Origin: a virus
Direction: 5' to 3' (one strand)
Virus record (IMG/VR): IMGVR_UViG_3300032053_014513
Coordinates: 1-20,406 of that record
Length of the DNA: 20,406 nt
Part shown: in pieces, positions 1 through 16,107 of the stretch
Numbering within the stretch: position 1 is the first letter of the stretch
How the letters are laid out: each line of letters starts with the position of its first letter
Notes under the pieces: model-generated
The model's database searches: none
What the model was told of the DNA's origin: nothing
The model's input: the letters and a program-made list of their open reading frames with translations, nothing else
Position numbers and translations under genes: made by a program

Positions 1-1266
1 ATATGAAGCTAAATTATTTAGCGCTTTAGCTATTAATGTTACGTTTCCAGGACTTGTTTTATCTTGTGATACACCAGGAACTTTTTTAGCAAAATCAGTC
101 ATAATTTTTTTTGCTTCTGGCTCTGCCATATTTTGAGTTATTTTATTATACTCTTCTGGACTTGTCTTTTTAAACTCTTCAAGAGTGCTTTGCAAAACGT
201 TTTGTTGAGATGTCATTTCTATATCAGCAACTTTTATGAAATTTTGCGCAGCTAAAAATGCGTCACGAAATTCATCGCCACCAGTAAAATATTCTGTCCA
301 ATTCAATGGGTTTATGCCCATTCCTCCACCAGCACTTCCTTTACCCCCAACAATGCTGCTTATTCTTACAGCAAGTTTACGAAGATTATTAAGTCCGGAT
401 ATCACCTGATTTAAACTATTTATATCTTTTTTATTATAATCTTGTTCGAATTTGACAAAATCTTTTTTGAAAGCATCAAAAACTATTTTTTGTTCAGCAG
501 TGATTGTTCCATTTTCTTCTTGATTGCTAACTTCAAGATCATCAAGCTCCGATATGAAATTTTTGCCAGCATCAATTAATTCTTTTTTATCATAAATATG
601 ACTAAAAAGTTTGTTGGCTAAATAACCAGTAAGCACACCAGCTGAAATAGCCAATGATAAAGTTGTTGCCAACCCTACTGCTCCAGTAACGGCAACCCCT
701 GATAATCCTGTTGCTGCTGGGGCGGCTTCTAACCACGCTCCAGCACCAGCCATCTCAGATAGTTGAGCTTTTTTTTTAAGTCCTAGTATATCCTCTGCAT
801 CTTTTATAATGTCAGCAACATCAGCTCCATACTTGCCCGTTGGCTGCTTATTCACAACATCAACAATCTTCTTGTGTCTCTCAAGTATGTTCGGCACCTT
901 CGCATGCTCTGAATCACTAATTGGCTTCGCCGCATGTGGATGCGCAAAATCTATAACGTCATCCCCATCCTCATCAATCGCACGATATAAATGAGTCTCA
1001 GCCTTTTTATAATCAAAGAACTTCGTCTCCAATGAATCGGCCTGCTTCTCAAACCCCTTGGCGCGCAATCCATCAGCAAGTTTCAATATGTCCTGCATTA
1101 AATCTTTGCCAGGCTTATATGAAACCTTCTTCTTTGGCTTCGATGCCGCTACCTTCTTTACAACAGACTCAACCGAAGAAGAATTAAACTCGCCCTTCGC
1201 TTTCGAAATTCGTTCTAATTCTCGCATGACCGGACTGTCTAAAAAATTAATGTGCTTAAAAGTCAT
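1..1266 (-). CDS. Virion-cluster protein with helical module and hydrophobic segment (3' end outside window)
   Basis: The reading frame is open for 422 codons from an ATG at 1266 to the window edge, so the C-terminus is missing. The N-terminal 50 residues are basic (KPKKK near 44-48). Residues about 54-92 form a helical module of the kind LA..L...GF...AD.L, which recurs in other proteins of this cluster. It is followed by LYRAIDEDGDD and an AHP motif (108-110), then VVNKQPTGKYG (137-147). Residues about 183-218 are a Gly/Ala/Val/Leu-rich hydrophobic stretch that could be one long or two short membrane-spanning helices. The remainder is helical and charged. The start lies 2 nt after the stop of the 98-residue gene, which suggests translational coupling. 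The function is not recognised. A hydrophobic segment in a virion-cluster protein could mean an ejected or membrane-interacting protein, but that is inference. Confidence 0.8.
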   Translation of the reverse strand, partial: MTFKHINFLDSPVMRELERISKAKGEFNSSSVESVVKKVAASKPKKKVSYKPGKDLMQDILKLADGLRAKGFEKQADSLETKFFDYKKAETHLYRAIDEDGDDVIDFAHPHAAKPISDSEHAKVPNILERHKKIVDVVNKQPTGKYGADVADIIKDAEDILGLKKKAQLSEMAGAGAWLEAAPAATGLSGVAVTGAVGLATTLSLAISAGVLTGYLANKLFSHIYDKKELIDAGKNFISELDDLEVSNQEENGTITAEQKIVFDAFKKDFVKFEQDYNKKDINSLNQVISGLNNLRKLAVRISSIVGGKGSAGGGMGINPLNWTEYFTGGDEFRDAFLAAQNFIKVADIEMTSQQNVLQSTLEEFKKTSPEEYNKITQNMAEPEAKKIMTDFAKKVPGVSQDKTSPGNVTLIAKALNNLASY

Positions 1267-1268
1267 TA

Positions 1269-1565
1269 TTATTCCTGCTCTTCTAAATTGATTAGCATCA
1301 CACTTTCAACAAATTTAGGATCTACTTTGGCTGTATACTCAGGATCATTAGTAAATGCATGCTGAAGCTTCTTAAATGCCTTTTTTAAACGCGGCGAAGC
1401 ATTAACCTTTCGCTCAAAACCCTCAAGGTCCTGCAAAAGACTTATGTCCGCGTCAAGCTCTTCCTCAGCACTCTTTTTGCTAAATGCTTCTTTTTTAAGC
1501 TCGCTGGAAACATATTCGCGAAATATCTCAGAATTTGTTGCTGCGGCCCAATCGGTAGAATTCAT
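1269..1565 (-). CDS. Small hypothetical protein, 98 residues
   Basis: A short, charged, predicted helical protein with no family I recognise. The ATG at 1565 is preceded by a good ribosome binding site, GGGAG at 1571-1575 with 5 nt spacing, which supports the start. The sequence is rich in Glu, Lys and Ala (for example SSELKKEAFSKKSAEEELD) and has no Cys, signal peptide or membrane segment. It lies 36 nt beyond the HNH endonuclease gene and is followed after 2 nt by the 422-codon partial gene, so those two are probably co-translated. By position it is probably a small virion or assembly protein, but no role can be assigned. Confidence 0.75.
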   Translation of the reverse strand: MNSTDWAAATNSEIFREYVSSELKKEAFSKKSAEEELDADISLLQDLEGFERKVNASPRLKKAFKKLQHAFTNDPEYTAKVDPKFVESVMLINLEEQE

Positions 1566-1601
1566 AGTAACTCCCTAATATATCAATGCTTATTTATTGC
1601 A

Positions 1602-2483
1602 TTATTCTGTCCTATTACCTTTCTTTATATTAGCTATAGTCTCTAATGGTCGAAGATTCTCAAGTTTCCAACACTTTAAGAAATTTTCGTCAGTCAAAGA
1701 AATGAACAGAAGCTTAGATTGTGGAATAATGTGGTCTACTTGCCATGTATTTTTATTTGAATCATATTTACCATAATTACCCCAATTCATCCATGGCTCC
1801 CATAATGATTCAATATGTTTACGTAATTCATTCATGTCATACGGCAAATAATTTAAAATAGAATTATTATTTTTTAAACCACCATTTATCTTAATATATT
1901 TATTAACTGCCGAACTAACAACCTCTCTCAATCTAAAAGACGCATCTATTATTCGTTTTTGCTTTTTATATATTCGTTTATATTTGATACGCACAGGCTT
2001 GTATAAAATTTCTCTTTTATATATACATGCTTTACAAACACTTATATGCATGTTTTTTGAATATCTGTCTTTACTAAAATATTTAATATTTTTCTCTAAA
2101 CTACAAATTATACATTTTTTTAAAGATTTGATATCATATTTTATTTTTGTTAATCTTAGTTTCCTATATAATTTAAGGCAATTTTTGCATTTAGAATTAT
2201 ATCCATCTTTTATATATTTATTTTTACTAAATAAATTTATATTGAGATTATTACAGCAACTTGAACACAATTTATTTTCTAAAACAGGTTTTTTGCTATT
2301 TTTTGTTAATAGCTTTATACTTCTGCTTTGCTCAATTAATTTTGATTTATTGTTTAAATATCTTGCGCGATCCGTTTCTTTAACACATATTTTGCACCAT
2401 ATAACAAAACCATCCGCTTTACTACTCGATTTGCTAAATTGATTGAAACCTTTAGTTATTTTACATTTCGAACAAATTTTCAT
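1602..2483 (-). CDS. HNH endonuclease with three N-terminal zinc-binding repeats
   Basis: This is probably a mobile (homing-type) DNA endonuclease of 293 residues. Three evenly built four-Cys units precede the nuclease: C4/C7...C30/C33, C73/C76...C99/C102 and C124/C127...C150/C153. Each has a 22-residue gap between its two CxxC pairs. The second also has an extra Cys77. A Lys/Arg-rich region (about 155-180) leads to the C-terminal HNH core: WQVDHIIP (D250, H251), then LENLRPL (N276) and N285/N290 in ANIKKGN. HNH enzymes use the His to activate water and Asp/Asn/His to hold a metal. No clear ribosome binding site precedes the ATG at 2483. The gene is visibly more A/T- and Asn/Lys-rich than its neighbours, consistent with recent insertion between the 231- and 98-residue protein genes. 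The DNA target cannot be read from the sequence. Confidence 0.9.
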   Translation of the reverse strand: MKICSKCKITKGFNQFSKSSSKADGFVIWCKICVKETDRARYLNNKSKLIEQSRSIKLLTKNSKKPVLENKLCSSCCNNLNINLFSKNKYIKDGYNSKCKNCLKLYRKLRLTKIKYDIKSLKKCIICSLEKNIKYFSKDRYSKNMHISVCKACIYKREILYKPVRIKYKRIYKKQKRIIDASFRLREVVSSAVNKYIKINGGLKNNNSILNYLPYDMNELRKHIESLWEPWMNWGNYGKYDSNKNTWQVDHIIPQSKLLFISLTDENFLKCWKLENLRPLETIANIKKGNRTE

Positions 2484-2505
2484 AAATAGCTGAAATTATT
2501 GAATT

Positions 2506-3201
2506 TTATACCCAGAGAAACTCTAATGAAGAAAAGACCGATGTAGGAGTTCCGGTCACAATAGCTACACCAGGATGACTTGGGCTTGGCTGACGAGTAG
2601 TTAATTTGCCTTCTTCAGAAACAAATAAGTTTGCATTAATTGGATATCTCTGATTAGTCTCATATTGGTCAGTCTGCGCAATAAGCCTAGTAAACCACAC
2701 AGTAACTCTAGAACTTCCTTGTGTAGAATCATCGCCAGGAACATTGGGAACCTGATATGTATAATTAACTCTAGTTCTAATAGAGTCTGGAATTCCATCA
2801 CCATCGGCATCAAAATTCAATTGTGTTCCAGCCAAAAATATAATAACCCCGTTTCTTGGAATTAATTCTACATCTACCGGATCGGATGTAAAACTAGATG
2901 AAACAACATTTGGGTTTTCTAATTCCATTTTTACATCAGTAGGAGTTATTAAAGTCCCTCCAGGCCCAGAGATACCAGCAATTGGACCAGCAATTATTAT
3001 TTCATCAACAGATGGTGCAAAGAATGCTTTTGTCTTTACGTCATCAATAATGCCTATTGGAACTGTACCATCACTAACTCCACAAACTACGTTGTTGCCC
3101 ATTACTGTCAATTGCGCAATCATACCGGGTTGAAACTCAGCGTTGGGATCAACTGGGAAAGTAAAGGGAATTGAATTACATACCTGAATAAGACGTAACA
3201 T
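2506..3201 (-). CDS. Conserved-type phage virion protein, beta-rich, with DxDxDG loop
   Basis: A 231-residue protein beginning MLRLIQV, with SIPFTF, FQPGMIAQLTV and VPIGIIDDVKTKAF near the N-terminus. From memory, this layout resembles a virion protein usually found beside the major capsid gene in environmental phage genomes; no search was possible. Near residue 127 there is a calcium-loop-like FDADGDGIPD. The C-terminal half is beta-rich (NYTYQVPN, SRVTVWFTRLIA, NQRYPINANLFV) and ends in LEFLWV. The frame could open with TTG at 3207, but GAGAGG at 3208-3213 sits 6 nt before the ATG at 3201 and directly abuts the TTG, so the ATG is preferred. Endonuclease genes lie on both sides. A head decoration or completion role is likely but inferred. 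Confidence 0.8.
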   Translation of the reverse strand: MLRLIQVCNSIPFTFPVDPNAEFQPGMIAQLTVMGNNVVCGVSDGTVPIGIIDDVKTKAFFAPSVDEIIIAGPIAGISGPGGTLITPTDVKMELENPNVVSSSFTSDPVDVELIPRNGVIIFLAGTQLNFDADGDGIPDSIRTRVNYTYQVPNVPGDDSTQGSSRVTVWFTRLIAQTDQYETNQRYPINANLFVSEEGKLTTRQPSPSHPGVAIVTGTPTSVFSSLEFLWV

Positions 3202-3207
3202 ATACAA

Positions 3208-3213
3208 CCTCTC
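3208..3213 (-). promoter_or_regulatory. Ribosome binding site that fixes the start of the 231-residue virion protein
   Basis: On the minus strand this reads GAGAGG. It is 6 nt upstream of the ATG at 3199-3201 and immediately adjacent to the TTG at 3205-3207. The spacing supports the ATG and argues against the longer TTG-initiated form. Confidence 0.7.
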
Positions 3214-3217
3214 GAAA

Positions 3218-4051
3218 TTATTGAAGATTTAAATTATTTGACCATTTATACTGAAAACAGCTGACATCTGGAGCGCCAATTTTATCAAGTAAAGCTCTTG
3301 TTGCTTTCTTTGAGGCATAAATTACTGGATATTTTTGTTTATTTGTAACATGAATTGTATCATCACCAACGAATTTATTTAATTTTTCGGCTAAAAATTC
3401 GCACTCATCTATAGTAAAAGAACAGGTACAAAGTCTTAAATGGCCTTTTTCTTTAGATACTGAGCCATCATCCATAATCCAATTTCTAATGGCCGGAGCC
3501 GAAAGTTCAACATCCATAGGTACAATTTTTTTAGCACCTGCATAATATTTATTAATTTTCTTTGCACCAATATACCATTTATTATATATCTCAGCTAATT
3601 GTATAGTGCATTTTGTTGTCAATTTATAAGCATATGTTTTATACGTTTTATCAAATATTTTATATATTCTACAAACCAAATCATTTTGTTCAATTATATT
3701 TTTTACATATTGTATATATTCTTCGTATTTTGATGTAAATTGAAAAAATGCCTGTATTCCAACAAATGCAATACTTCCATCACCCAACAACCAACCATCT
3801 AATTTTTGCAAAGTATCATTATTTAATTTAGTATGATTAGCAAAAATCATATGATTTACTTCAGATCTATTTCTTCTTTTAATATTGTTTTCTTTTAAAA
3901 CATCTCTTACATATGCAGGATGAGTGCTATATGTTTTAGCAATATCATATGTTGACTCGCCATTTTGATACCGCTCCACAATAGATATATCTTCGCCTAT
4001 TAAAACGGTTTTTACCGCATATTTTCTATCCATCATGAATCTATATATCAT
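3218..4051 (-). CDS. Free-standing LAGLIDADG homing endonuclease with N-terminal helix-turn-helix
   Basis: A 277-residue protein with two LAGLIDADG-type helices, LDGWLLGDGS (84-93) and IRNWIMDDGS (188-197). This marks a single-chain two-repeat endonuclease in which D91 and D195 are the expected metal-binding acidic residues. Residues about 24-60 (YQNGESTYDIAKTY...VRDVLKENNIKRR) look like a resolvase/sigma-type helix-turn-helix. No splice-junction motifs surround it, so it is read as free-standing rather than as part of an intein. It lies between a transcription terminator and the 231-residue virion protein gene, and its stop codon is 16 nt above that protein's ATG. No strong ribosome binding site precedes the ATG at 4051. 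An alternative start is one of the two consecutive ATGs giving MMDRK, at residues 6-7. The gene is AT-rich, as expected of a mobile gene. Confidence 0.9.
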   Translation of the reverse strand: MIYRFMMDRKYAVKTVLIGEDISIVERYQNGESTYDIAKTYSTHPAYVRDVLKENNIKRRNRSEVNHMIFANHTKLNNDTLQKLDGWLLGDGSIAFVGIQAFFQFTSKYEEYIQYVKNIIEQNDLVCRIYKIFDKTYKTYAYKLTTKCTIQLAEIYNKWYIGAKKINKYYAGAKKIVPMDVELSAPAIRNWIMDDGSVSKEKGHLRLCTCSFTIDECEFLAEKLNKFVGDDTIHVTNKQKYPVIYASKKATRALLDKIGAPDVSCFQYKWSNNLNLQ

Positions 4052-4070
4052 GTATCATGCTGTTTAAATG

Positions 4071-4105
4071 AAAAAGCCCAAGTTGTGAGATACCTGGGCT
4101 TTTTT
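4071..4105 (-). terminator. Rho-independent terminator after the head gene block
   Basis: A 10-bp stem, AAAAAGCCCA at 4071-4080 pairing with TGGGCTTTTT at 4095-4104, encloses a 14-nt loop. On the minus strand the GC-rich part is followed by a run of five T. It begins 23 nt after the stop of the 393-residue gene, so it would end transcription of the long operon. The plus strand also ends in six T after the stem, so it could work in both directions, but no plus-strand gene is seen. Confidence 0.8.
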
Positions 4106-4127
4106 AAGTTAAGTTTTGAATAGAAGA

Positions 4128-5309
4128 TTAAACATCTTCGAATAATTCATTTATCATATTAATATCATCTGCTTCATTATTTTCGGCGATTTGATCTATT
4201 TCTTCTTCTGGAACCTCGCCCTTATCGCCTAATATCATATCTAAAAACCTATCTTCTAAAGCATCCGAAGGCCCACTTTGCAAATTTGGAGTTTCTGTTA
4301 ATCCAGACTCCAATTGCTCACGCATCCATTCTCCTGGTCCTTCATGTGTTTTATTATAAACACTTGGAAGATGCGCGTTACCATAATACATGCCTTTTCT
4401 ACCGGCATTACCATGTGGGCTATCCTGTATATCATTTACATCATAACCAATATGCCGATACATCTCTTTTTCATTTTTGGATTTGCCAGGATTTTTTGGT
4501 TTCTTAACCTTTTTGCCTACAGGCTTTTTCTTTGCAGCTTCGCTTATAATGACATCGTTACTATCATTGTTTCTATGGCGTGAAGCATCTCCCATTTCGC
4601 CAATATTCATTTTGGAAAGCCATCGAGCCACTTCCTTGGCAGCCCCAGCAATCTCATTTTTATCATCCACATATTCTGTAAATGCTCGTCCTAGCAAAAC
4701 TCCTGACTCGCCTTCAATTCGAACAGCTGCGATCATATAGCCGCCTTCGCTTTGAGGCCGTACAATAATGGTGATTCCATTATCTGCACGAGAAATTTCT
4801 TTTGGTTGGAGCCTGATATGTTTTGCAGCTTCTGGATATTCAAAATCTGAATCACCAGAATCACTTGCTAAAATATCATTTTGTTGAGCATGCCAATTAG
4901 CATCATCATCTGGATCTAAACCTATTTTATTTAGATGTCTTAATGAGTAAATTTTTACTGCATTACGTGGTTGAAATTCTAAAATTTCTCGCGCGTTATC
5001 TTTGGCATCTTCTGGATATTCCCAGCCAGATTCAATTTTGCCATTTACTAAAACATAATGTGTATAATCTGGATTATTTATTCCAGCTGTTTTTTGAATT
5101 TTTGAATTTAATATTCTTTCAACAATAATAGTAGAAGCTTCTGCAAATTTAAATAAACCAGCTTGTTCGAAAGCTGTTGCCGCTACACTTAACTGACGTG
5201 CTGCTTCTATACGTTTTCTATCAACATGAGATTCTTCTTCATGTGTGGCTTTATATAGATTGCTCTCCATTTCGGAAGCTATGTCAATAGTATTTGCTAA
5301 TTTAAACAT
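4128..5309 (-). CDS. Head-cluster hypothetical protein with N-terminal helical module, 393 residues
   Basis: Not assignable to a named function. Residues about 34-70 carry the helical module shared with neighbours (QLSVAATAFEQAGLFKFAEA). Residues 81-139 form a small domain with HYVLVNGKIESGWEY followed by DAKDNAREIL and GLDPDDDANW. Residues about 165-245 look like an alpha/beta domain (ITIIVRP, YMIAAVRIEGESGVLLGRAF, AAKEVARWLSKM). A Lys-rich linker (258-280) and a strongly acidic C-terminus follow. The ATG at 5309 is 1 nt beyond the stop of the 68-residue gene, so translation is probably coupled. It is the last gene before the terminator. Position and composition suggest an internal head or scaffold-associated protein; this is inference. 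Confidence 0.8.
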   Translation of the reverse strand: MFKLANTIDIASEMESNLYKATHEEESHVDRKRIEAARQLSVAATAFEQAGLFKFAEASTIIVERILNSKIQKTAGINNPDYTHYVLVNGKIESGWEYPEDAKDNAREILEFQPRNAVKIYSLRHLNKIGLDPDDDANWHAQQNDILASDSGDSDFEYPEAAKHIRLQPKEISRADNGITIIVRPQSEGGYMIAAVRIEGESGVLLGRAFTEYVDDKNEIAGAAKEVARWLSKMNIGEMGDASRHRNNDSNDVIISEAAKKKPVGKKVKKPKNPGKSKNEKEMYRHIGYDVNDIQDSPHGNAGRKGMYYGNAHLPSVYNKTHEGPGEWMREQLESGLTETPNLQSGPSDALEDRFLDMILGDKGEVPEEEIDQIAENNEADDINMINELFEDV

Positions 5310-5310
5310 G

Positions 5311-5517
5311 TTACGCCAATTTTTCTAATAGTTTTGTAACAAGCTCTGCATTCTTATGATCACCCAAGTTTTCTAAAATATCAGCTGCCTTGATTAAACT
5401 ATTCATGGCAATAGTTATATCATCAGAACGAACAACTGATTCGGCTTGCTCTGCCATAAGATTTTTTCTCATGGCAGAGGCAATTTCATCGCCAATTATA
5501 GAATTTAAGTTAGTCAT
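5311..5517 (-). CDS. 68-residue protein made almost entirely of the shared helical module
   Basis: This small protein is essentially an N-terminal amphipathic helix (SIIGDEIASAMRKNLMAE) plus one copy of the helical module at residues 32-68 (SLIKAADILENLGDHKNAEL...). The same module occurs in the genes on both sides: residues 34-70 of the 393-residue protein and about 160-202 of the 408-residue protein. It starts 5 nt after the stop of the 408-residue gene and ends 1 nt before the next ATG, so the three appear to be translated as a unit. It may be a stand-alone version of an assembly or docking module. The function is unknown. Confidence 0.75.
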   Translation of the reverse strand: MTNLNSIIGDEIASAMRKNLMAEQAESVVRSDDITIAMNSLIKAADILENLGDHKNAELVTKLLEKLA

Positions 5518-5522
5518 TTAAT

Positions 5523-6749
5523 TTAGAGATAGTCTATATCATCACTATTTTTTATCCATTTATCCAATGATTTAAATGCTTTAACTACTTGAGCATCTTT
5601 GCAATTAGAGTGATGAACGTGACCTTCTCCGCTCTCATTTAATTTAGGGTCGATACTTGATTTAAGCTGACTTGGTGATACATAATCATCATCAGACATG
5701 TTTATTTCAGTTGGTTCCATTTTTGGACGATTCCAAGCTGGAGCCGGTTTGCCTACTGGTGCTGCTGGCTTACCAGCTACCCCAGGTGCCTGATGCATGA
5801 ATGGAGCATTTGGCTTACGTTCTGGCATTTTCGGACCAGTATATGGAGCCTGTTGTGATTTGCCGACTGGTTTTGCAGCCGGTTTTGCAGCAGAAATTGG
5901 AGCATCAGCATTGTTGGTATCAAAATCTAATTCTTCATTAGAATCTAATTCAAAATCAAGATCACGCTCTTCTTCTGGGCGCATATCTGGATATGACTCA
6001 GTGTCCATATCTTCCTCTTCTTCTCCTGATAAACCAAGTTCTGAACGCGGCTCTGGACCAAAGAGATCTTTGTCTAATTGACTTTCAAGCTCTTCGTCAT
6101 CAAACTCGCCTTCTTCCTCTTCATCATATGCGGTTTTAATAGAAGCCTCACGAACGATAATATCAAGGGCCTGTAGTGCCGCCATAGAACTGCGCTCATA
6201 GCCCATTTCATCTAGCACGGCTGAAGTTTTTGATAATGAATCAACGATATAATGCAAAGCTAACATCGCATCTTTCTTTTTTGATTTCTTAGCCTCTTCT
6301 TTTTCTTTCTTTGCCTCTTCTTTTTCTTTCTTCGTTTCTTCTTTTTCTTTGGCTTTTTCTTCTTTGGCCTCTTCTTTGGCTTTTGCTTTCTCTTCTTTAG
6401 CCTTCTCTTTGTCGTCTTTCTTATCTTTGGCAAAGTTTACATCATTATCATCATCTTCTTCTTTCTTCTTCTTTTTCTTGCCTTTTTGAAGCCAAGGAGG
6501 CATTTTACCTTTCTTTGGCTTGGTCTTTTTAGACTTGCCTTTCTTATCCTCGTCCTCGTCCTCTTCATCTTCATCATCTTTATCATCAGCTGCAAACTGA
6601 GCAAAACGATTGAATGCATCTAAACTTGGATTAGCAGCTGTTTTTATAACAGCCGGTCCTGGCTTAGCAAATATCTTTTTAAACTCATCACTATTGAGAG
6701 TTTCATCCATATTTGCCGCAACTAAGTCACCTAAATTATATCGTTTCAT
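5523..6749 (-). CDS. Highly charged head-cluster protein with Lys/Glu-rich region, 408 residues
   Basis: The order along the protein is: an N-terminal segment with LGDLVAANMDETLNSDEFKK; an acidic stretch (55-68); a Lys-rich stretch (69-96) containing MPPWLQKGKKKKKK; and a long Lys/Glu/Ala repeat region (108-159) of KEEAKKEK type, likely a single alpha-helix. The shared helical module follows at about 160-202 (SLSKTSAVLDEMGYERS). Then come an acidic region (208-280) and a Pro/Ala/Lys-rich part (284-345). The C-terminus has GEGHVHHSNCKD and KSLDKWIKNSDDIDYL. AGGA sits about 8 nt before the ATG at 6749. Scaffolds and internal head proteins often have this composition, and the gene follows the protease-scaffold gene, so a core or internal protein role is plausible but unproven. 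Confidence 0.8.
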   Translation of the reverse strand: MKRYNLGDLVAANMDETLNSDEFKKIFAKPGPAVIKTAANPSLDAFNRFAQFAADDKDDEDEEDEDEDKKGKSKKTKPKKGKMPPWLQKGKKKKKKEEDDDNDVNFAKDKKDDKEKAKEEKAKAKEEAKEEKAKEKEETKKEKEEAKKEKEEAKKSKKKDAMLALHYIVDSLSKTSAVLDEMGYERSSMAALQALDIIVREASIKTAYDEEEEGEFDDEELESQLDKDLFGPEPRSELGLSGEEEEDMDTESYPDMRPEEERDLDFELDSNEELDFDTNNADAPISAAKPAAKPVGKSQQAPYTGPKMPERKPNAPFMHQAPGVAGKPAAPVGKPAPAWNRPKMEPTEINMSDDDYVSPSQLKSSIDPKLNESGEGHVHHSNCKDAQVVKAFKSLDKWIKNSDDIDYL

Positions 6750-6767
6750 AATTGTATCCTATAATTC

Positions 6768-6794
6768 TGGCCCGCCATATAATATGGCGGGCCA
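6768..6794 (-). other. Perfect 13-bp inverted repeat between protease-scaffold and 408-residue genes
   Basis: TGGCCCGCCATAT is followed by one base and then its exact reverse complement. It is GC-rich within an AT-rich region and fills most of the 58-nt gap between the stop at 6808 and the ATG at 6749. No T run follows on the minus strand, so it is not a standard terminator. It could be an mRNA processing or stability hairpin, an attenuator, or a binding site for a dimeric protein. It lies upstream of the AGGA ribosome binding site of the next gene and does not overlap it. Confidence 0.75.
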
Positions 6795-6807
6795 AACGAA
6801 TCATTAA

Positions 6808-9800
6808 TTAGTATTTTCTTCCAGAGAAAGCTGCCGCTAGATCTGTGCGAATATCAGATGACGCTGCTGGTGCAGAAAGAACAATCTGATCTGAAGCTCC
6901 AACCATTAAATCCTGCATTCCTACTTGTGGAATATAAGAAGCCGCCTTACGCATTGAGCCTTGGCGTTGAACCATACGCTGCATGCTAGTAAATGCTTCA
7001 TCATCCCACTTCATAATGCTGTTTACTTGTTCCGTGACTGATTCACGAGCGCTGGCACAAAGACCAACGTCCGCCATCTGGTTAGCAAGCTCATAAGAAC
7101 GAGCTAACTTAACACGGTAAGATTGCATCTCTTCTGCCGCTTTCTTCTTGGCATGCTCCTTTACAAACTCAGAAGCAAACTCCGTAGACTCTGGGTCCTT
7201 TGCCTCGCCCCAGAATTGCTTCCAGTATTTAACTGCATTAGAGTCAAGACCTTGCGCAATTAATCCAGGGAAATCAGTCTTTGGATCGATAGCACCTGCT
7301 ACAACAAGTCTCTGAATTTCTTCAGCTGCCTTGCGTACCTTTGGAGCCGCCGTTGCAACATCCATTATTGCATCATGCTTCTCTTCCAAATCCTCAACAA
7401 GCGCCCCATCCTTGAGGGATGGTTTGTTGTCTAGACTTGTGGTTGTTCCACCGGATGGATGTGCCTTTCCAAGCATATCGCTAAATTGAAGCCCTTTTTG
7501 AGCGATTTTCATTCTCATTTGTGCGCGTCCTTCTTTGGTGTTTAAGCTAGCGCTCGCTGTTAATTCACTATCATTTACCATTAAATCATCATCAGCTGGA
7601 GCGCTATCTTTCTTAGGATCATAATTCTCTATTTGCCATTTGCCGTCCTTAAACTCGGCAGTTGCGTCATTATCATCATAATCATCTGCGCGACCCATTT
7701 CTAAGCCAGTACCAACATTAGGTGCAGTAGCTGGGAATTCTGGGCGCATTGTTGATCTTGGCTTTGCTGGACCAAAGCTTGGTGTAACAGGAGCTTCTCC
7801 TAACATTCCGCTTATGCCAGCAAACATTCTCTTGATATCTTCTAGACTTTGAGCTTTGGAAAATTGATTTTTGATAGCTTGTACTTTTGCCGCATCCGCA
7901 GTGTCTGCGTCATTCTCATCCTCTTCCTCTTCCTTATCTTCGTCTTTTTCGTCTTTTTCGTCTTCTTCCTCTTCTTCCTCTTCGTCCTTATCCTTCTTCT
8001 TTTTCTTCTTATCTTTCTTATCGTCATCATCAGCTAACAAGGCATCAAGGTCCGCCGCGCTATTAATATCAATAATTCCTGCGCGCTTAACTAATGCGTC
8101 GGAACCTTCTGCATATTTAACAAATGCGCTCATGAGTTTGTAAGTATTAGCAATGGTCTTATCTGCATCACTAATCGCATCCTTTGTTACTTGATTAACA
8201 AGATTTTTGTTTTCTTGTGTTACCGCACCATTTGTATCATAAACATATGAAACAAGCTTAAGCTCTTCAATATGATCTTGAATTTCTGCTACCGCCTGCT
8301 TAATACCTTTTCTTAAGGCGCCATTAAGAGTTTTGGCCATTGAAGTAAGAGATACGGATGCCGTTGCACCCATCGCTGGAGCAGGAGCTTCCGCTGCTGG
8401 CATCTGTTGATCCTTAAGAGCCTCGAAAGCCTCGCTCAACTCTTGAACGAGATTATCTAACTCTTTGATCTTTGATCCAACATTATCAGTTGGATCTCCC
8501 TCTGCGCCAACTTCTGTGCCTGCATTTGGCTCTAATCCGGCTTGATCCATAGGCATTCCCATTCCTGCTGCTCCGCTCGCATCTGGAGTAGCACCTGGGG
8601 CAGCGCCTGGACCCGCTGCGGCCGGAACTGGCTGAGCGCTCTTAAATAACCTGGACGCTTTATCAAATCCCTGAGTCTTAATTGTAGAAAGGATTTTCTT
8701 GCCGAAATCACGAGTTGCAATTACGTCATAAAGAGACTCTGACTTACCGCCCGTTAACTCATCAACGCTAACTTGCAATACCGCTCTCTTATCAGCGAAT
8801 ACCTGCCAATAACTTGCTCCTTTGTTATCGGAGCCGTCTACTGGGTTCGCAGCCTTTATGAAACGTGCGCTAAGAGACGCGCGCTGTAACATTTGCTTGC
8901 GCTTTAATTCGTCCTTAATATCAGCTGATTCTGGACTTGGATGCAAACTGTCAACTGGACCAACTCCTGGGAATGGCTTCTGTCCAGTCATTTGCTTATC
9001 TTCTTTATCACGATTTGTCTCGTAATTCTCTTTTGGATACTTTGGCTTACCTGGGGTTGGCTCATTAACATCGCCTCCACCCTGGAAGTAAGCTTCCTTG
9101 CGCTTATCTAAAGCTTCTTTGGCCTTTGAGATTGCTGCCTGACGACGAAGCGTGCGACGCTCAGCCTCCGCAGCAAGACGCTGTAGACGACGCTTGCGCG
9201 CCTCTTCGGTCTCTCCATAGGACTCATAACCAGGATGCATGCCATCAATTGGGCCTGTATCTGGGAATGGCTTTTGGCCATTCATTTGTTTATCAACATT
9301 ATCACGAATAGACTCGTAATCCTCTTTTGGATATTTAACGTCTTTTGGCGCTGGTTCATTGATTCCGCCGCCGCCTTGAAAATATGCTTTTTTCTCAGTC
9401 ATTTGTGTTTCCTCGTCTGTTAACTTAAAAGCCAATTTATTGATAAGATTATCCATTTTTTTATGTAAATTTGAAATTAGACCATGCATCCGGTCTGTAT
9501 CAGAGGCATATTTAGCCGGAGGAGTGCTTAAATCCTTCTTACTTTCAGGGTAAGTTCCTTCCGGACTCTCCATTGATAAACTGCCTCTACCCGGTTGTCC
9601 ATACGCAGAATCTGAATCTGAATTGGAATCAACGTCTTTTACAGCAGCGTCTAATTTCTGTAATTCATTTTGTAATCGCTCAACCTCAGCCTTAAGCGTA
9701 CTGAAATCTTCAGTACTTAAATTTTTCTCTTCCTCTAAAACCTTTTCTTTCATATCAACATAACTTGCTATACTATCAGCCGCTGCAACAATATGTCGAA

Positions 9801-10536
9801 TCTTTGCTTTCTGATCCGCACCATTTACAACAATTGAAAGTTCAATTGGATTTAATCCAACGTTAATTTCTCCATAACAACTTTTTGCTATCATGCAAGC
9901 GCAAAAGTCTGACTCTACTTTTGCTACCTTTCCACAATCAGTGCAAATAGCTTTTCCTACTGCTGTACCCATTGATACAGAAGTGGCGTAACCTGTAGCA
10001 ACCTTACGTGCTAAATCTGGATAATTTTTCTTATCCAAAGCGCATAAGGCAATAATCCTTTTGAATTTGTTATCATAATATGTATCTACGATAACGCCGC
10101 GAATTGCATCCACTGAGCTTGATTTATGATCCAAACAAAGAGGCTTTCCAATCCAATTCTTATATGCTTTCTTTAATTCCTCTTCTGGAAAAATATCACA
10201 ATTGCTATTCTTATAGGGCTTTATATTTTCATTAGAACATTTCCACTTCCATGATTCACCGTTTTTTACCCATTCGGATGTCAACGGAGTGCCATCAGAA
10301 GAGGTCTTTATATTTCCGCCATCATCAATTAACGCTGCCTCTGCGGCATGCATCATAATGGCCGTAAAATATAAAAAGTCCTTTGCCTTTGGAGCAATTG
10401 ATTTTAATTCAGCGGCTACCTTTGCAAATCGTTCCAAAATTTCTGGGTCAGCCTCATTAAGCACCATCTCCGTTGGTTTGATGTTATCCGGAGTAATGGT
10501 ATAGGCTTGACCTATTTTTATAAGAGGGGTGACCAT
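6808..10536 (-). CDS. Capsid maturation protease fused to a large scaffold-like protein
   Basis: Residues about 50-250 match the fold order of phage prohead proteases. WIGKPLCLDHKSSS holds the likely catalytic His137, GYATSVSMGT holds the likely nucleophile Ser188, and a Cys cluster follows (C198, C201, C212, C214, C220). NPIELSIVVNGAD closes the domain. After a coiled coil (262-300) come two copies of a roughly 55-residue repeat (about 383-438 and 481-537, starting KAYFQGGG/EAYFQGGG). Next are a Lys/Arg-rich linker, an Ala/Pro/Gly-rich region (635-725), helical segments, and a dense Asp/Lys/Glu tract (836-877). A helical C-terminus (1045-1190) resembles a scaffold. Such proteases cleave the scaffold during head maturation; here both would be one chain. 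The ATG overlaps the previous stop (TAATG), with AAGGA 9 nt upstream. The protease call is firm; the scaffold role is inferred. Confidence 0.85.
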   Translation of the reverse strand: MVTPLIKIGQAYTITPDNIKPTEMVLNEADPEILERFAKVAAELKSIAPKAKDFLYFTAIMMHAAEAALIDDGGNIKTSSDGTPLTSEWVKNGESWKWKCSNENIKPYKNSNCDIFPEEELKKAYKNWIGKPLCLDHKSSSVDAIRGVIVDTYYDNKFKRIIALCALDKKNYPDLARKVATGYATSVSMGTAVGKAICTDCGKVAKVESDFCACMIAKSCYGEINVGLNPIELSIVVNGADQKAKIRHIVAAADSIASYVDMKEKVLEEEKNLSTEDFSTLKAEVERLQNELQKLDAAVKDVDSNSDSDSAYGQPGRGSLSMESPEGTYPESKKDLSTPPAKYASDTDRMHGLISNLHKKMDNLINKLAFKLTDEETQMTEKKAYFQGGGGINEPAPKDVKYPKEDYESIRDNVDKQMNGQKPFPDTGPIDGMHPGYESYGETEEARKRRLQRLAAEAERRTLRRQAAISKAKEALDKRKEAYFQGGGDVNEPTPGKPKYPKENYETNRDKEDKQMTGQKPFPGVGPVDSLHPSPESADIKDELKRKQMLQRASLSARFIKAANPVDGSDNKGASYWQVFADKRAVLQVSVDELTGGKSESLYDVIATRDFGKKILSTIKTQGFDKASRLFKSAQPVPAAAGPGAAPGATPDASGAAGMGMPMDQAGLEPNAGTEVGAEGDPTDNVGSKIKELDNLVQELSEAFEALKDQQMPAAEAPAPAMGATASVSLTSMAKTLNGALRKGIKQAVAEIQDHIEELKLVSYVYDTNGAVTQENKNLVNQVTKDAISDADKTIANTYKLMSAFVKYAEGSDALVKRAGIIDINSAADLDALLADDDDKKDKKKKKKDKDEEEEEEEDEKDEKDEDKEEEEDENDADTADAAKVQAIKNQFSKAQSLEDIKRMFAGISGMLGEAPVTPSFGPAKPRSTMRPEFPATAPNVGTGLEMGRADDYDDNDATAEFKDGKWQIENYDPKKDSAPADDDLMVNDSELTASASLNTKEGRAQMRMKIAQKGLQFSDMLGKAHPSGGTTTSLDNKPSLKDGALVEDLEEKHDAIMDVATAAPKVRKAAEEIQRLVVAGAIDPKTDFPGLIAQGLDSNAVKYWKQFWGEAKDPESTEFASEFVKEHAKKKAAEEMQSYRVKLARSYELANQMADVGLCASARESVTEQVNSIMKWDDEAFTSMQRMVQRQGSMRKAASYIPQVGMQDLMVGASDQIVLSAPAASSDIRTDLAAAFSGRKY
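8926..9390 (-). repeat. Two copies of a roughly 55-residue repeat inside the protease-scaffold gene
   Basis: Copy 1 (about 9390-9223) and copy 2 (about 9096-8926) both encode AYFQGGG, then NEP.P, KYPKE.YE..RD..DKQM.GQKPFP, GP.D..HP..ES. They are separated by a basic helical linker of about 42 residues. Conservation is obvious in protein and clear in DNA, indicating an internal duplication. Confidence 0.85.
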
Positions 10537-10736
10537 TAGTTTTGTTCCTTATCTAAAATTTGTGAAAGTTTTTTATAACTTTCAATTTCATTCTCGGCAC
10601 CGTCAATAGTTTTCTTAATAGAATTTTGAGCAGCCTTCTTCATAGCTTCACGGGTTTTATAATCGTTCAAATCTTGCTTAATTTTATCATCTCCAAGAAT
10701 TTTCACAGATTCAACTTTACATGTCTTAATAAACAT
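10536..10736 (-). CDS. Small hypothetical protein, 66 residues
   Basis: A Lys/Glu/Asp-rich, mostly helical small protein. A short beta-like start (FIKTCKVESVKILGDD) is followed by one long predicted helix or coiled coil. The start at 10736 has GGGAG at 10745-10749, spaced 8 nt. Its stop overlaps the ATG of the protease-scaffold gene in a TAATG, so the two are translationally coupled. No family is recognised. A small partner or assembly factor for the protease-scaffold is possible only by position. Confidence 0.7.
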   Translation of the reverse strand: MFIKTCKVESVKILGDDKIKQDLNDYKTREAMKKAAQNSIKKTIDGAENEIESYKKLSQILDKEQN

Positions 10737-10740
10737 TATG

Positions 10741-11388
10741 CTAACTCCCGTTTCCTTTAAGCATGTCTTCTACTTGTTTCTCTCTATCATTATAAAGCCG
10801 TTTTATGTATGGTTCTTTATCTTCAATTTGAAATTTTAATTCTTGAGATAAATTTTCCTTCCAATTAGTTGCCAGAATATTGGTATTTATATGATTTAAA
10901 AGTCTTTCATCAATCAGTTTTGTGACCTGAGCGGCCTGTTTTTTAATTCCCTGAACTACTTTTAACACATTATCTCTAAATTCTTTCGCTTTCAAATTTT
11001 TAAATATTGAATCAAAAATTTTAACTTGATCCTCTATATCACCAATAGATTCTACGAAAGACCTCATTAATTCAACAGAATGAGTATCATTAGAAAATTG
11101 ATTCATATGAGCTACACAATAAAGCGCCGTTTTGGCTATATTATTAAAATTGTCTCTAACCTTATTCTTATAACGAATAAGCGCTCCTCTATTATCTATT
11201 ATTGATTTTGTTGATATTGTTTGATGAGCGTTAAATGGATTATAAATAATATCCAAATGAGTATTAAGTGCTTCAATTTTTTCTTTTACTTGCAAAAAAG
11301 CCTTTACAGCCTTTTTAGCCATGACTTTTTCATTGTCTGGAACATCAAAAGACAGCTGAGGTGTTTGAGCAAATTTTGAAATATTCAT
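10741..11388 (-). CDS. Helical hypothetical protein of the head cluster, 215 residues
   Basis: Almost entirely alpha-helical by composition, with several amphipathic segments (KKAVKAFLQVKEKIEALN, DNFNNIAKTALYCVAHM, QAAQVTKLIDERLL). It has no signal peptide or membrane segment, and I recognise no catalytic motif. The start at 11388 lacks a strong ribosome binding site and is 30 nt beyond the stop of the phosphatase gene. Its stop is 4 nt from the next ATG. It is probably a structural or assembly protein; the function is unknown. Confidence 0.75.
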   Translation of the reverse strand: MNISKFAQTPQLSFDVPDNEKVMAKKAVKAFLQVKEKIEALNTHLDIIYNPFNAHQTISTKSIIDNRGALIRYKNKVRDNFNNIAKTALYCVAHMNQFSNDTHSVELMRSFVESIGDIEDQVKIFDSIFKNLKAKEFRDNVLKVVQGIKKQAAQVTKLIDERLLNHINTNILATNWKENLSQELKFQIEDKEPYIKRLYNDREKQVEDMLKGNGS

Positions 11389-11418
11389 TTGTTAAATATA
11401 TATTATAAAAATACCATG

Positions 11419-12375
11419 TTACATTTGAGGAATAACGCCGCCAATCGGTTGAGCAGATACACTAGAACCAGGAGTTCCGCCCTCTGCGCCACTTGGTGGA
11501 TTCAAACTCGAATCTTGTATTCCATTAAAATTGCTTCTTAAACCTACAGATGGCATGTCCAATTCATTATTATCTTTATTATCTTTATTAAGAAATGATT
11601 TTAATAACTTTCTCAAGATCTTAATTCTTTCTTTTTTACTTTTCTTAGAATCATCATCATACGCAACATCAGAAGAAGAAGGATTTGTTCCCATTGCGCC
11701 TTCTCCGTTAGGATCCATATATGGCGCAAATGATTGTTGCATTGGTGCTGCTGGACCAATAGAATTAGCTGGGTTACCAATTAACATTTCTTCATTTTCA
11801 ACTAAATCGCGAATATCCTTTTTTGCAGCCGTTTTAGCAGCTTGTTCTCCTGGTAATGGCGGCTTTGGTGGCTTATCCGGCGAAGCAGCATTTACGCAAT
11901 AATGAGTATGAGCTATCTTGCAGGCCTTACAAATTTCAGAATTAAATTGATTTTCAACATCAGGTGATATGCCTGTTCCATATCCAAGATTTTTGGCTTC
12001 TTTAATTGCGTCCGTGCATGCGCGTCCCTGAATAATAACTCTATACAAAGCTATAACAAATCCTGTTCTATCTTTACCACGGGCACAGTGAACTAATACA
12101 GCTCCACCATTACTTGATTTAAATAAACTCTGAGCGTTATTTCTAATTAATTGTGATGATGAGCGCACATTTGAATTATCAAGAATTGGAATTAATATTT
12201 GCTCAATACCATATTGTTTTGCATACGGCGCTATTATTGTTCCAGCTGTTTGATCAAGACTTATTATTTTATGAATATTATAAGGCGGCCCAGAAAGCAT
12301 ACGAATTTCAGTCGGCGCAATACGTCCGCTTCTATACAATGCACCCGGTATTACAACTTGAAAATTAACTGGCAT
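11419..12375 (-). CDS. Tyrosine/dual-specificity-type protein phosphatase with disordered C-terminal tail
   Basis: Residues 9-20 (IPGALYRSGRIA) and 91-105 (VLVHCARGKDRTG) match the atypical dual-specificity/tyrosine phosphatase fold. The signature is HCxxGxxRT, with Cys97 as the expected nucleophile and Arg103 as the phosphate-binding residue. An Asp in the ILIPILDN segment (D66) is a candidate general acid. A short Cys/His cluster follows (C149, C152, H156, H158, C160). The rest (about 165-318) is low-complexity: Pro/Ala-rich, then a basic segment (KKSKKERIKILRKLLKSF), then Gly/Ser/Pro-rich. The gene sits inside the head operon and overlaps the preceding gene by TAATG, with AGGA about 10 nt upstream. 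The substrate cannot be read: it may be a phosphoprotein, phosphoinositide or nucleotide. Whether it is a virion component is unknown. Confidence 0.85.
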   Translation of the reverse strand: MPVNFQVVIPGALYRSGRIAPTEIRMLSGPPYNIHKIISLDQTAGTIIAPYAKQYGIEQILIPILDNSNVRSSSQLIRNNAQSLFKSSNGGAVLVHCARGKDRTGFVIALYRVIIQGRACTDAIKEAKNLGYGTGISPDVENQFNSEICKACKIAHTHYCVNAASPDKPPKPPLPGEQAAKTAAKKDIRDLVENEEMLIGNPANSIGPAAPMQQSFAPYMDPNGEGAMGTNPSSSDVAYDDDSKKSKKERIKILRKLLKSFLNKDNKDNNELDMPSVGLRSNFNGIQDSSLNPPSGAEGGTPGSSVSAQPIGGVIPQM

Positions 12376-12710
12376 TAGTATAAATTCCTAACAATTTCTT
12401 GTATAACTCTTCTAATGTAAATAGGATGATGCCCAATAAGAATGGTTTTCACAAAAGTAATTGCTTGACCTAATGATGCAGTAGATGGATTTTTTTTGTT
12501 AGCTATATCATATTCGTTTATAGCCCAAATTTTATTACGTAAATTCGTCACTGACTTGCCACGCTTATCTGGCGAAATACGATTTATAATAAAACGAATT
12601 ATATTGGCTATAATTTTACCGGACGAACCAGGATCTCCCATTTCCGCTACCGTTGCGGCCAAAACAGTCATTCGTATAATTTGTTGACTATTCTTTTTCA
12701 TCACTATCAT
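12375..12710 (-). CDS. Small basic hypothetical protein, 111 residues
   Basis: A predicted helical, basic protein (SGKIIANIIRFIINRISPDKRGK, ending RRVIQEIVRNLY) with no recognised family. The frame overlaps the end of the preceding gene by 23 nt if the ATG at 12710 is used. A second ATG at 12701 (MKKNSQQ) would shorten the overlap to 14 nt, and neither has a clear ribosome binding site. Its stop overlaps the phosphatase ATG in TAATG, so these two are coupled. By its position it could be a head completion or adaptor protein, but there is no direct evidence for that. Confidence 0.7.
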   Translation of the reverse strand: MIVMKKNSQQIIRMTVLAATVAEMGDPGSSGKIIANIIRFIINRISPDKRGKSVTNLRNKIWAINEYDIANKKNPSTASLGQAITFVKTILIGHHPIYIRRVIQEIVRNLY

Positions 12711-13140
12711 CTTTATAATTAATTGCTTTTATTGAAGAAAACAATGCAATATTAACAGGATCTTCTAACTCATCAATAAACGCCTTATCAAAAGCATCCT
12801 TAAAAGATTTCATAAATGCATACAAACGCTTAGGATCATCCTGCTGTCTTAATTTTCGCATAATATAAGAATAACTAAGATTGGCATTTGAATTATCAGC
12901 GCCAAGCACACATAACACCCTGTTACTTAAATCATCTTCTCCAATAAGTTTTAATTCTTTAGCAATTGAAATCAATATTGATGACGCTTTTTTATCTTTA
13001 TGTTTAAAATATTCTATTTGTTTTAATCTATCTTCTGCTTTTAAACGACTAGGATACGTACCCATACTTCGGCCTTTCCGATCATGCACTCGGAATTTAC
13101 CATTGGGTAGCTTTCTAATTATTGCAAGTTTTTCAAACAT
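12688..13140 (-). CDS. Phage protein with N-terminal beta motif and helical module, 150 residues
   Basis: Residues 8-48 (IRKLPNGKFRVHDRKGRSMG then LKAEDRLKQIEYFKHK) form a small beta-beta-alpha unit. I have seen similar N-termini in many phage hypothetical proteins, where the wording runs roughly 'NGKYRV...KGK..G.......AE.RL.QIE.FK'. Residues 53-80 (ILISIAKELKLIGEDDLSNR) fit the helical module found elsewhere in this cluster. The C-terminal half is helical and ends acidic (DDSDEKE). Its ATG overlaps the previous stop in TAATG. The function is unknown; a regulatory or structural role cannot be separated. Confidence 0.75.
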   Translation of the reverse strand: MFEKLAIIRKLPNGKFRVHDRKGRSMGTYPSRLKAEDRLKQIEYFKHKDKKASSILISIAKELKLIGEDDLSNRVLCVLGADNSNANLSYSYIMRKLRQQDDPKRLYAFMKSFKDAFDKAFIDELEDPVNIALFSSIKAINYKDDSDEKE

Positions 13141-13446: not shown

Positions 13447-16107
13447 TTATTTCCTCATTTGTATTAATGAATAAACAGATGTTTTTACTAATTGTTTGTT
13501 TATAATTTGATAACCTTCTGATACGCAATCACAAACTGCCTTGACAGCATCAGTTGCTATTTTTTCATTACCCGCTACTATGCAATTAATTTCAGTCTTA
13601 TTGCCATTTTTTCTTGTAGATATTTCAGCTCCAAATAATTTATGTAATGATTTGCATAACATATTTACGTAATCATCTCCGGCGTCCTTTGCAATAACCA
13701 ATACATTTGACTTCGGTAAAAGCTTACGAGCTATCGCATTTTTAACCACATGATTTAACTGACTACCATTTGCAGAAGTCCATAACATGCGTTCAAAATT
13801 TTCAATTGAAGAATCTTCTTGTTTTTTTGGTTCTTCCGTTTTTTTAGCTATCATTTGCTTCCTTTCATCAGTAGACGTGTCAGTATATGGAGGCACTGTA
13901 AAAAAACTTGCAGGATCTTGTATTTGATTATTTTTCCATACTTGAAAATGTAAATGAGGAAATGTATGCATAGCGTTACCAGTTTTTCCTACATTGCCAA
14001 TTACCGTATTATTATCTACTTTATCGCCTTTATTAACATTAAATCCAGAAAGATGAGCATAATAAGTTCTAAATCCATTATCATGCTCAATATTAATTAC
14101 ATTGCCGCCTTTTGGATCTGTGCCAACATTTGTTACTATTCCTGGTAAAAATGGATAAATAGAAGTTCCTTCCGGCGCTCTCATATCTACTCCAAAATGT
14201 CCCTTGGATCCATTTGGACGAACAGAAATTGGATCAAACACACCAGAAGTGCGCCAATCTGATTTAATAGGAGACTGATAAGATCCGGTGGTAAAACCAG
14301 TGTTGCTATTATTTTTATAATCACTAAATTGAGCGCGCTCGTTTAATGCAACAGTTATGGCTGCCAGACCTTTGTTCATTTTATAAATATGATCATTTAT
14401 ATTTTCTTCTCTATTTTTACCAGTACCTTCGTAATATTTTGAATCATACATGGCAGTAGAAAAATCTTTTATAGATCTGTTTTCCGCAGCATCTAAAGTA
14501 AGATCTTTTCTTCTTTTGTTGACAAATATTTGCTTTATTAAATCCGCCGCTCCTGCTTCTGGAGTTGGATAAGATTTGTAACACCAATGATAAACCTTTT
14601 GCTTTCCACTTGGTGTAGGGCTGCTGTCCTGCTGAAGAAAACTTCCTGTTGGACATTTGCCATTAACAGGCTTTCCTTTATTTGGGCAATCTGCGCATTG
14701 AATTGCTCCCCAATTGTTCGAATTCTTACCCTCTCCTTTCCATCCAGTTCCATAAGTAGTTTCCATTAACGCAGTTGTTTGCGCCAATTGTATTTCTTGT
14801 AATGCTGGCTTGCGCCCCATTACTTTCTCAAATGCCCGCTCTAATATTTCTCTGGCCCATTTGTGTTGCCCATTGGGATCAACAGAAATCACAGGAGACG
14901 TTTTTATTTTATCAGTAGGGGCTTTTATCTTATCAGGATCCCACCAAGCTATTTTTTTAATAGCATTTATTCTAGCAGACATCTTTGGTCTATATTGCTC
15001 AACGCCAATGATGTCATATCCCTCACCAACAAAATGTTTAGTTAAAGCCTCAATCTTATCCGCTGTAGCATCAATAACCTCTTCTACATTGTGCTTCTTT
15101 TTTAATTCTTCTTTGACTTTAACAATATCTTTTTTAGAATTTTCATTTTGTGAATATTCTGGCACAATTAAAAACAATGCTTTTTTGCCCGATTTTGTTT
15201 TTGGAATAATACTTGGCGCCTCTCCACTATATTTTACATCCCAAATGCGAGGGGTTCTAAAAATTGATAATTCTGCTCTAGGACGTATTTGCGCCCCAAA
15301 ATCATTTAAAATTACCTCTGCTTTAAATGATAAATTTAATTCTGGTACATCAACATTCGAAGTCTCAACTATAATTCTAGTCAATCCTTCTGCTGGATCT
15401 AAAGGCGGAACTTTACTTTCTATTGCATATTTATTAGAAATAACTATCCCGTCACGAATGCCATTTATCAACGCATTAAATAAAGCATCAATTTTCCTTG
15501 AATCACCAAATACTTCAATTGGAAATTTAGCCTTTCTAAATTCATTAGCAAAATATCTTCTTAAATTAAACTCTTTTGATTTATCTGAAATAATAATTTT
15601 CGCACGTTTAAGATGGTCGAAATCCTGATAAGGTTTATTAATGTTATCACTTATTGGCATGTCATAACCAACAGGATGACGCTGTTTATACCCCTCTAGA
15701 ATTCCTGATATTTCTTCCTGCTTCTTTGATTCTTGTTCATGCTTTATTGACTTCGGTTGCTCATGAGGCACAACAGAGGCTTGTTCAGCCGATTCTTCCA
15801 TCTGGCCCAAGCGCTCTGATAAATGCTTAATCAATATACGAACTTCACTTAAATTTTGTTCATAAGTGCTGACATCAGCATTTTGAATAGCATCCTGAAC
15901 ATTCTGAGTTGCCGTATTTAAATCAGACAATAAACTACGAACATCGTCGAATTTATTTGTTAAATCATCGACTTTATCACGATACTCTGGACTAACAAGA
16001 CGCTTTAAAAAATTCGAAATATTTTGCACGAATCCGGCACTCTTGACAATATCATTATTATCAAGAGTTAGACTTGCATTTTTAAGTATTTCGATTTCAT
16101 TATACAT
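13447..16107 (-). CDS. Virion-associated peptidoglycan hydrolase: lysozyme-like plus M23 endopeptidase
   Basis: Domain order in 886 residues: N-terminal coiled coils (40-135); a structural alpha/beta region (160-300); an alpha/beta domain (308-373) shared with the neighbouring 951-residue protein; a lysozyme-like domain (about 415-592); an M23 (LytM-like) domain (about 620-740); and a C-terminal alpha/beta domain (770-880). In the lysozyme-like part, METTYGTG holds the likely catalytic Glu449, NNWGAIQ follows, and there are four Cys (471, 474, 485, 509). The M23 part is complete: H637/D641 (GHFGVD) and H720 as zinc ligands, with H685 (YYAHLSG) and H718 (HLH) as catalytic His. It would cut glycan strands and peptide cross-links to help DNA entry. 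The ATG lies inside the end of the previous gene (8-nt overlap), with AGGA 9 nt upstream. Location in the virion is inferred from the head/portal neighbours. Confidence 0.85.
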   Translation of the reverse strand: MYNEIEILKNASLTLDNNDIVKSAGFVQNISNFLKRLVSPEYRDKVDDLTNKFDDVRSLLSDLNTATQNVQDAIQNADVSTYEQNLSEVRILIKHLSERLGQMEESAEQASVVPHEQPKSIKHEQESKKQEEISGILEGYKQRHPVGYDMPISDNINKPYQDFDHLKRAKIIISDKSKEFNLRRYFANEFRKAKFPIEVFGDSRKIDALFNALINGIRDGIVISNKYAIESKVPPLDPAEGLTRIIVETSNVDVPELNLSFKAEVILNDFGAQIRPRAELSIFRTPRIWDVKYSGEAPSIIPKTKSGKKALFLIVPEYSQNENSKKDIVKVKEELKKKHNVEEVIDATADKIEALTKHFVGEGYDIIGVEQYRPKMSARINAIKKIAWWDPDKIKAPTDKIKTSPVISVDPNGQHKWAREILERAFEKVMGRKPALQEIQLAQTTALMETTYGTGWKGEGKNSNNWGAIQCADCPNKGKPVNGKCPTGSFLQQDSSPTPSGKQKVYHWCYKSYPTPEAGAADLIKQIFVNKRRKDLTLDAAENRSIKDFSTAMYDSKYYEGTGKNREENINDHIYKMNKGLAAITVALNERAQFSDYKNNSNTGFTTGSYQSPIKSDWRTSGVFDPISVRPNGSKGHFGVDMRAPEGTSIYPFLPGIVTNVGTDPKGGNVINIEHDNGFRTYYAHLSGFNVNKGDKVDNNTVIGNVGKTGNAMHTFPHLHFQVWKNNQIQDPASFFTVPPYTDTSTDERKQMIAKKTEEPKKQEDSSIENFERMLWTSANGSQLNHVVKNAIARKLLPKSNVLVIAKDAGDDYVNMLCKSLHKLFGAEISTRKNGNKTEINCIVAGNEKIATDAVKAVCDCVSEGYQIINKQLVKTSVYSLIQMRK

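Follow-up and report, generated by a model that had tools for sequence, protein, structure and literature searches.

A two-part helical module common to three adjacent head-cluster genes in a clade of huge phages

The proteins of the T4 prohead core enter the core before the shell, directed by the propeptides of the internal proteins (IPs), N-terminal segments of 10-19 residues from which the protease frees the proteins (PMC9026906). In the giant phages phiKZ and SPN3US, many of the packaged internal proteins carry N-terminal propeptides (PMC10052503, PMC13282480); those of SPN3US range from 20 to 254 residues and are cut after A-x-E (PMC10052503). We consider here a helical module encoded by three adjacent genes in the head cluster of an IMG/VR virus record ("the window", the whole stretch of 20,406 bases that was analyzed, whose main genes all lie on the minus strand). 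The genes are p408, p68, and p393, and they and their counterparts in related phages are called A, B, and C, respectively. The likeness to IPI, IPII, IPIII, and Alt of T4 is that of an N-terminal element common to several head-gene products, encoded beside the protease and scaffold and followed by a variable remainder (PMC9026906). The T4 element is short and cleaved, however, while the A/B/C module is about 65 residues long, is predicted to form a folded hairpin, and has no sequence in common with it.

Judged by sequence, the adjacent genes A, B, and C are paralogues, and each encodes a module of two parts, a helix at the N-terminus and a helical hairpin. Relatives were gathered by profile searches with p233 and p1242, the genes on either side of the trio, yielding about 150 related loci, some from records of 200-480 kb. 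(Many of the loci overlap one another within a single record, and their number should therefore not be read as a number of phages; intervals are counted as distinct unless identical in sequence.) In one relative, L002, the orthologues of p68 and p393 are visibly similar across the entire length of p68, and a single iterated profile seeded by p68 gathers the A, B, and C families. When compared by hhalign, the hairpins of B/C match that of A with a probability of 94-95% (E-values of 9e-8 and 2e-8 over 33-34 columns); among the other head families only p422 (10-14%) exceeds 3%, and no reversed profile exceeds 1.5%. Taken by themselves, the N-terminal helices of A and B/C reach 88-93% against each other, with 4.9% for the best reversed decoy. 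Profiles this short (33-58 columns) hold limited information, but the confinement of the module (below), gene order, and the two independent halves agree. As to gene order, the interval from p1242 to p233 holds exactly A-B-C in 40 distinct intervals among the relatives, and nearly all other such intervals hold module genes, the remainder being mostly homing endonucleases or short open reading frames. A search for proteins carrying two modules found none.

The consensus of the N-terminal helix is approximately SxSDEIxxSMxxxL, and that of the hairpin yLnxAAeIfdxxGmxxeAxxvtxlLxxlA. In length the module is about 57-70 residues, and the second half of the A module starts past residue 45. It is seen in its bare form in p68 (5311-5517), where profiles and an AlphaFold2 model place the N-terminal helix at residues 3-30 and the hairpin at residues 31-68 (5314-5427), bearing out the initial annotation of the window, which had described the 68-residue protein as almost nothing else. 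The model consists of a long helix (residues 3-51) and a second helix (54-67), with a predicted local distance difference test (pLDDT) score of 85-95 across residues 31-68. In p393, profiles and the likeness seen in L002 assign residues 1-70 (5100-5309) to the N-terminal helix and hairpin (34-70). In p408, the halves are set apart. The helix half (residues 1-35, 6645-6749) is recognized by the match of A and B/C N-terminal profiles and the hairpin half (residues 160-202, 6144-6272) by the alignment of A proteins and its hhalign match to B/C (E-values of about 1e-7 to 1e-8), and the two are separated by a charged linker (6273-6644), acidic in most relatives and rich in D, E, and K in the window.

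What follows the module differs from one protein to another. The first gene with an N-terminal module has a tail of fewer than 20 residues in 48 of 87 cases, making the bare form the usual one for B, while the tails of the second gene run from 32 to 563 residues. Single-linkage clustering of the 162 tails of at least 30 residues gave 40 clusters. The tail of p393 (residues 71-393) is nearly unique to the window phage, clustering with just one other. The A proteins (n=61) have a median D/E fraction of 0.27 in the linker and a median K/R fraction of 0.38 in the C-terminal tail, which is lysine-rich and often ends in KKK or KKKV. One A protein (L034:13743-15317) contains a PG_binding_1 domain.

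In the 16 large records searched, the module is confined to the head cluster, which is one half of the support that the initial annotation had asked for. All six frames of these records (216-481 kb) were searched with the profile of B/C (58 positions) and that of the A hairpin (41 positions), and every match with E<0.05 lay in the A/B/C interval, save for one in a p951-like protein, itself encoded in the cluster. A Pfam and PHROG scan of 68 module members gave no consistent family, the scattered weak matches involving one to three members each; a sequence search of the PDB with the module turned up, apart from noise, just a weak similarity to a designed cage; and a protein search of named phages with a B gene gave noise only. 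A search of viral contigs with p68 gave one match (L191), a chance look-alike of 23 residues inside an unrelated protein. We found no description of the module in a short search of the literature.

It was by a looser pattern that the module was first noticed. The initial annotation drew attention to a short helical segment in five or six proteins, p422, p393, p68, p408, p150, and, more weakly, the C-terminus of p1242, and compared it to the capsid-targeting sequences of T4. All six segments are present where it had placed them, and the pattern in a loose form does recur, turning up four times in the window where shuffles predict 0.23 (for the relative G001, its remaining genes have 6 where 4.2 are expected). 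A profile made from the six window segments nonetheless recovers, when each is left out in turn, only p68, so relatives were needed to establish homology. Once they are brought in, profile homology holds for p408, p68, and p393, it is borderline for p422, and it fails for p150 and p1242. The N-terminal helix, absent from the original pattern, emerged from the profile comparison.

The p422 segment (residues 1-98, 973-1266) is a possible, borderline relative of the module. By hhalign, its hairpin matches the A/B/C module at 24-51% and its N-terminal helix at 21-31%. Its AlphaFold2 model has a helix at residues 12-23, a linker, and a hairpin at 56-98 (pLDDT of 93-98 across residues 51-90), the same architecture as that of A. 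A second N-terminal element, approximately SEIFeeFaKIAqEKGLiS, joins p422 (1-1266) with p98 (1269-1565) and a further family encoded downstream (e.g., L026:20545-21777), the N-terminal element of that family matching those of p422 and p98 at 90-95% by hhalign. The hairpin-like segment of p150 (residues 53-80, 12901-12984) is weakly like that of p422 (37-51%) but is unrelated to the A/B/C module, matching it at 0.4-0.7% at most, at or below reversed decoys. The p1242 segment (7003-7113) is likewise unrelated to the module; at no more than 0.3% it is also at or below reversed decoys, and it lies within a different, conserved scaffold domain. As for p951, its C-terminus gave a match by hidden Markov model in three relatives, but the profile of the family matches the module at about 1% or less. 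That family closes in the relatives (in the window, 16103-16327) with some 35 strongly conserved residues unrelated to the module, YIxKYAKSIQxxDPETAIKLFxIxKxI.

Perhaps, then, the recurrence is no more than a generic helical hairpin reached by convergence, one of the outcomes (along with a lack of profile similarity) that the initial annotation had named as fatal to its proposal. Convergence does account for p150, the p1242 C-terminus, most p951 C-termini, and the look-alike in L191. For A, B, and C, the significance of the profile matches, the confinement to the head cluster, and the separate match of the N-terminal helices exclude a generic hairpin, and as an explanation of the whole we consider convergence very improbable.

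What might such a module do? The neighboring gene offers a candidate partner. Directly upstream of A-B-C lies p1242 (6808-10536), which matches phrog_18299 (3.5e-14), a family of head maturation proteases, at its N-terminus, and also phrog_2774 (6.4e-18), and whose C-terminus, a conserved scaffold domain, is homologous to gp21 of Bacillus phage G (6.7e-10), the nearest named relative by capsid and protease. Since phage G encodes its protease (gp19) and gp21 as separate genes, p1242 is a fusion of protease and scaffold, and the initial annotation was right to call it one, though not in seeing a weak copy of the module at its C-terminus. The scaffold part is the probable partner of the module.

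We think it about an even bet that the paralogues A, B, and C of this huge-phage clade belong to the prohead core, as internal head proteins built on one two-part docking module. As the prohead assembles, the module would bind a common partner, for which the likeliest candidates are the scaffold part of p1242 and a mixed helical bundle of A, B, and C, and proteins carrying it would thereby be enclosed inside the head. B would serve as filler or spacer; charged or otherwise different tails would come in with A and C. Several observations weigh against this account. A, B, and C are adjacent paralogues, so their shared sequence may come from duplication without a common docking role. Of the C tails, 48 of 62 fall in one cluster with a common C-terminal segment (the main clade), so C tails mostly do not look like arbitrary cargo. 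And a search of head regions from phage G, Rctr197k, LR745208, Tunturi_5, Myrna, and Motura found no module; these six relatives, so far as the sequences examined tell, make heads without a detectable one.

The first of these points leads to a serious rival: plain tandem duplication of a gene for a small helical structural protein, A, B, and C being accessory scaffold or core proteins that have retained the N-terminal domain of their ancestor, which would have no targeting function of its own. The genes are indeed adjacent with their order kept in relatives, most C genes show low tail diversity, and in a tree of modules those of C group together, 50 of 62, albeit with weak support. Duplication would less readily lead one to expect the bare form of the module and the unrelated tails in the window's sub-clade, nor that A would retain both halves of the module despite the long variable linker between them. 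All told, we think it somewhat unlikely, but it must be kept firmly in mind.

A docking module that brings proteins into the prohead could act much as a targeting sequence does, and parts of the T4 pattern are found here. An element is common to several proteins that differ in their remainder (A, B, and C, with the 40 tail clusters; their internal location is putative), and it is encoded together with a prohead protease and scaffold. A short N-terminal peptide of 10-19 residues is not what is found. Because the module exceeds the T4 element in length, has a predicted fold, and may or may not be cleaved as in T4, we do not class it as a targeting sequence, though its action may resemble that of one. 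The interpretation of the initial annotation thus survives in that the shared module is genuine, is confined to the head cluster, and stands at the N-terminus or close to it, with tails that differ; it fails in the reach to six proteins and in the copy on the scaffold.

One sequence feature bears on possible cleavage. The motif hydrophobic-Lys-x-Ala was first spotted by eye, and when four-residue motifs in G001 were later scanned by residue class, it ranked first once low-complexity motifs were excluded. It occurs 31 times in the head-cluster proteins of G001 against 13.2 expected from within-protein shuffles, other genes of that record not being enriched; the head clusters of G005 (1.89-fold) and G011 (1.99-fold) are also enriched, with a reversed control motif equally enriched in G011. 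Outside the head cluster the ratio in the three records is about 1.1. The motif is strong in p1242, p886, p422, p111, p215, p951, and the capsid protein, unenriched in the portal, HNH, and B/C proteins (in B/C, 16 against 13.8), and absent from p233. Hypothetically, it may be the recognition site of the prohead protease, unlike the sites of T4, phiKZ, and SPN3US, whose proteases cleave after glutamate (PMC9026906, PMC10052503).

The motif enters into the case for a true capsid-targeting sequence, one that guides A, B, and C (perhaps also p422) to the core, after which the p1242 protease would cleave it off, possibly at hydrophobic-Lys-x-Ala. This would be a cleaved special case of the core-protein account, and confidence in the two overlaps. 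In its favor are the N-terminal position of the module, the restriction to the head cluster, and the roughly twofold enrichment of the motif in head-cluster proteins. But the motif is unenriched in the very B/C proteins that would be cut, the control motif fares as well in G011, B would be removed whole, and the proteases of the three phages just named cut after a different residue. No common site like the A-x-E cut site of SPN3US was found here. We regard a cleaved targeting sequence as doubtful.

Another route to the head interior would be through the coat. The scaffolding protein of phage P22 has a coat-binding helix-turn-helix, which, like the module, is a short hairpin of two helices within a protein of head assembly, and A, B, and C might be accessory scaffolds whose hairpins contact the capsid protein and not the scaffold part of p1242. 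In the PDB, the module does match 8i1v_H, a 30-residue chain of the P22 procapsid, over 27 columns with a template modelling (TM) score of 0.85 by target length. That match has a Foldseek E-value of 8.8, however, which is not significant, and it stands among many unrelated helical hairpins; Foldseek gave no significant fold match of the module to the PDB or to viral models, the best viral model being a 69-residue uncharacterized phage protein (E-value of 0.076, 31% identity, not significant). A P22-like role for the hairpin seems to us improbable.

The core-protein account has one more point of comparison in T4. Three small, charged helical proteins of its prohead core, gp22, gp67, and gp68, are encoded near the protease and capsid genes of that phage. 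They are like A, B, and C in size, charge, and gene position, but no homology was found, and to our knowledge gp67 and gp68 are without a common module.

Phage G itself is of the same protease and capsid lineage (34% identity in the protease, 52% in the capsid protein, and a homologous gp21 C-terminus), with a head cluster of gp14 (portal), gp19, gp21, and gp27 (capsid). It differs from the window clade in the separation of protease from scaffold, in the lack of a module, and in its capsid protein (PDB 6wkk), which is without an N-terminal extension of about 46 residues, MNASSLKDALQTLVKYAAILEENxPSN, conserved in the relatives (e.g., L085:17175-18194). That extension is possibly a propeptide.

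The head cluster of the window reads, along the minus strand, portal C-terminus, p951, p886, p101, p150, p111, p318, p215, p66, p1242, p408, p68, p393, endonuclease, p233, second endonuclease, p98, and p422. Homing-endonuclease-like genes (by eye, of HNH, LAGLIDADG, and GIY-YIG types) are found between the same head genes in the window (1602-2483 and 3218-4051) and in relatives (L002:12100-12987 and 16849-17808), and the portal gene (19073-20404) has, from inspection of its translation, an apparent LAGLIDADG-like intein end terminating ITIQQN/S. Within the cluster, p318 (11419-12375) carries a Cys-x5-Arg signature of the tyrosine-phosphatase type, HCARGKDRTG, and is by that signature a phosphatase-like protein; the protein is conserved in 83 related loci. 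In p886 (13447-16107), peptidoglycan-hydrolase domains are apparent by eye, and together with the A protein of L034 this looks like cell-wall functions inside the head cluster.

It is conceivable, though we think it quite unlikely, that the pieces form a single system in which a folded two-part targeting module loads a set of proteins into the prohead, the heads are matured by a protease of new specificity (hydrophobic-Lys-x-Ala), and the bare-module protein acts as a competitor or filler that tunes the loading. Few routes are known by which proteins are selected into the heads of huge phages (those of T4 and the phiKZ-like phages), and a module that also occurs as a bare 68-residue protein, beside a protease-scaffold fusion, gives a small, testable handle on the matter. 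If the module suffices for loading, it would represent a second, structurally different route of protein packaging.

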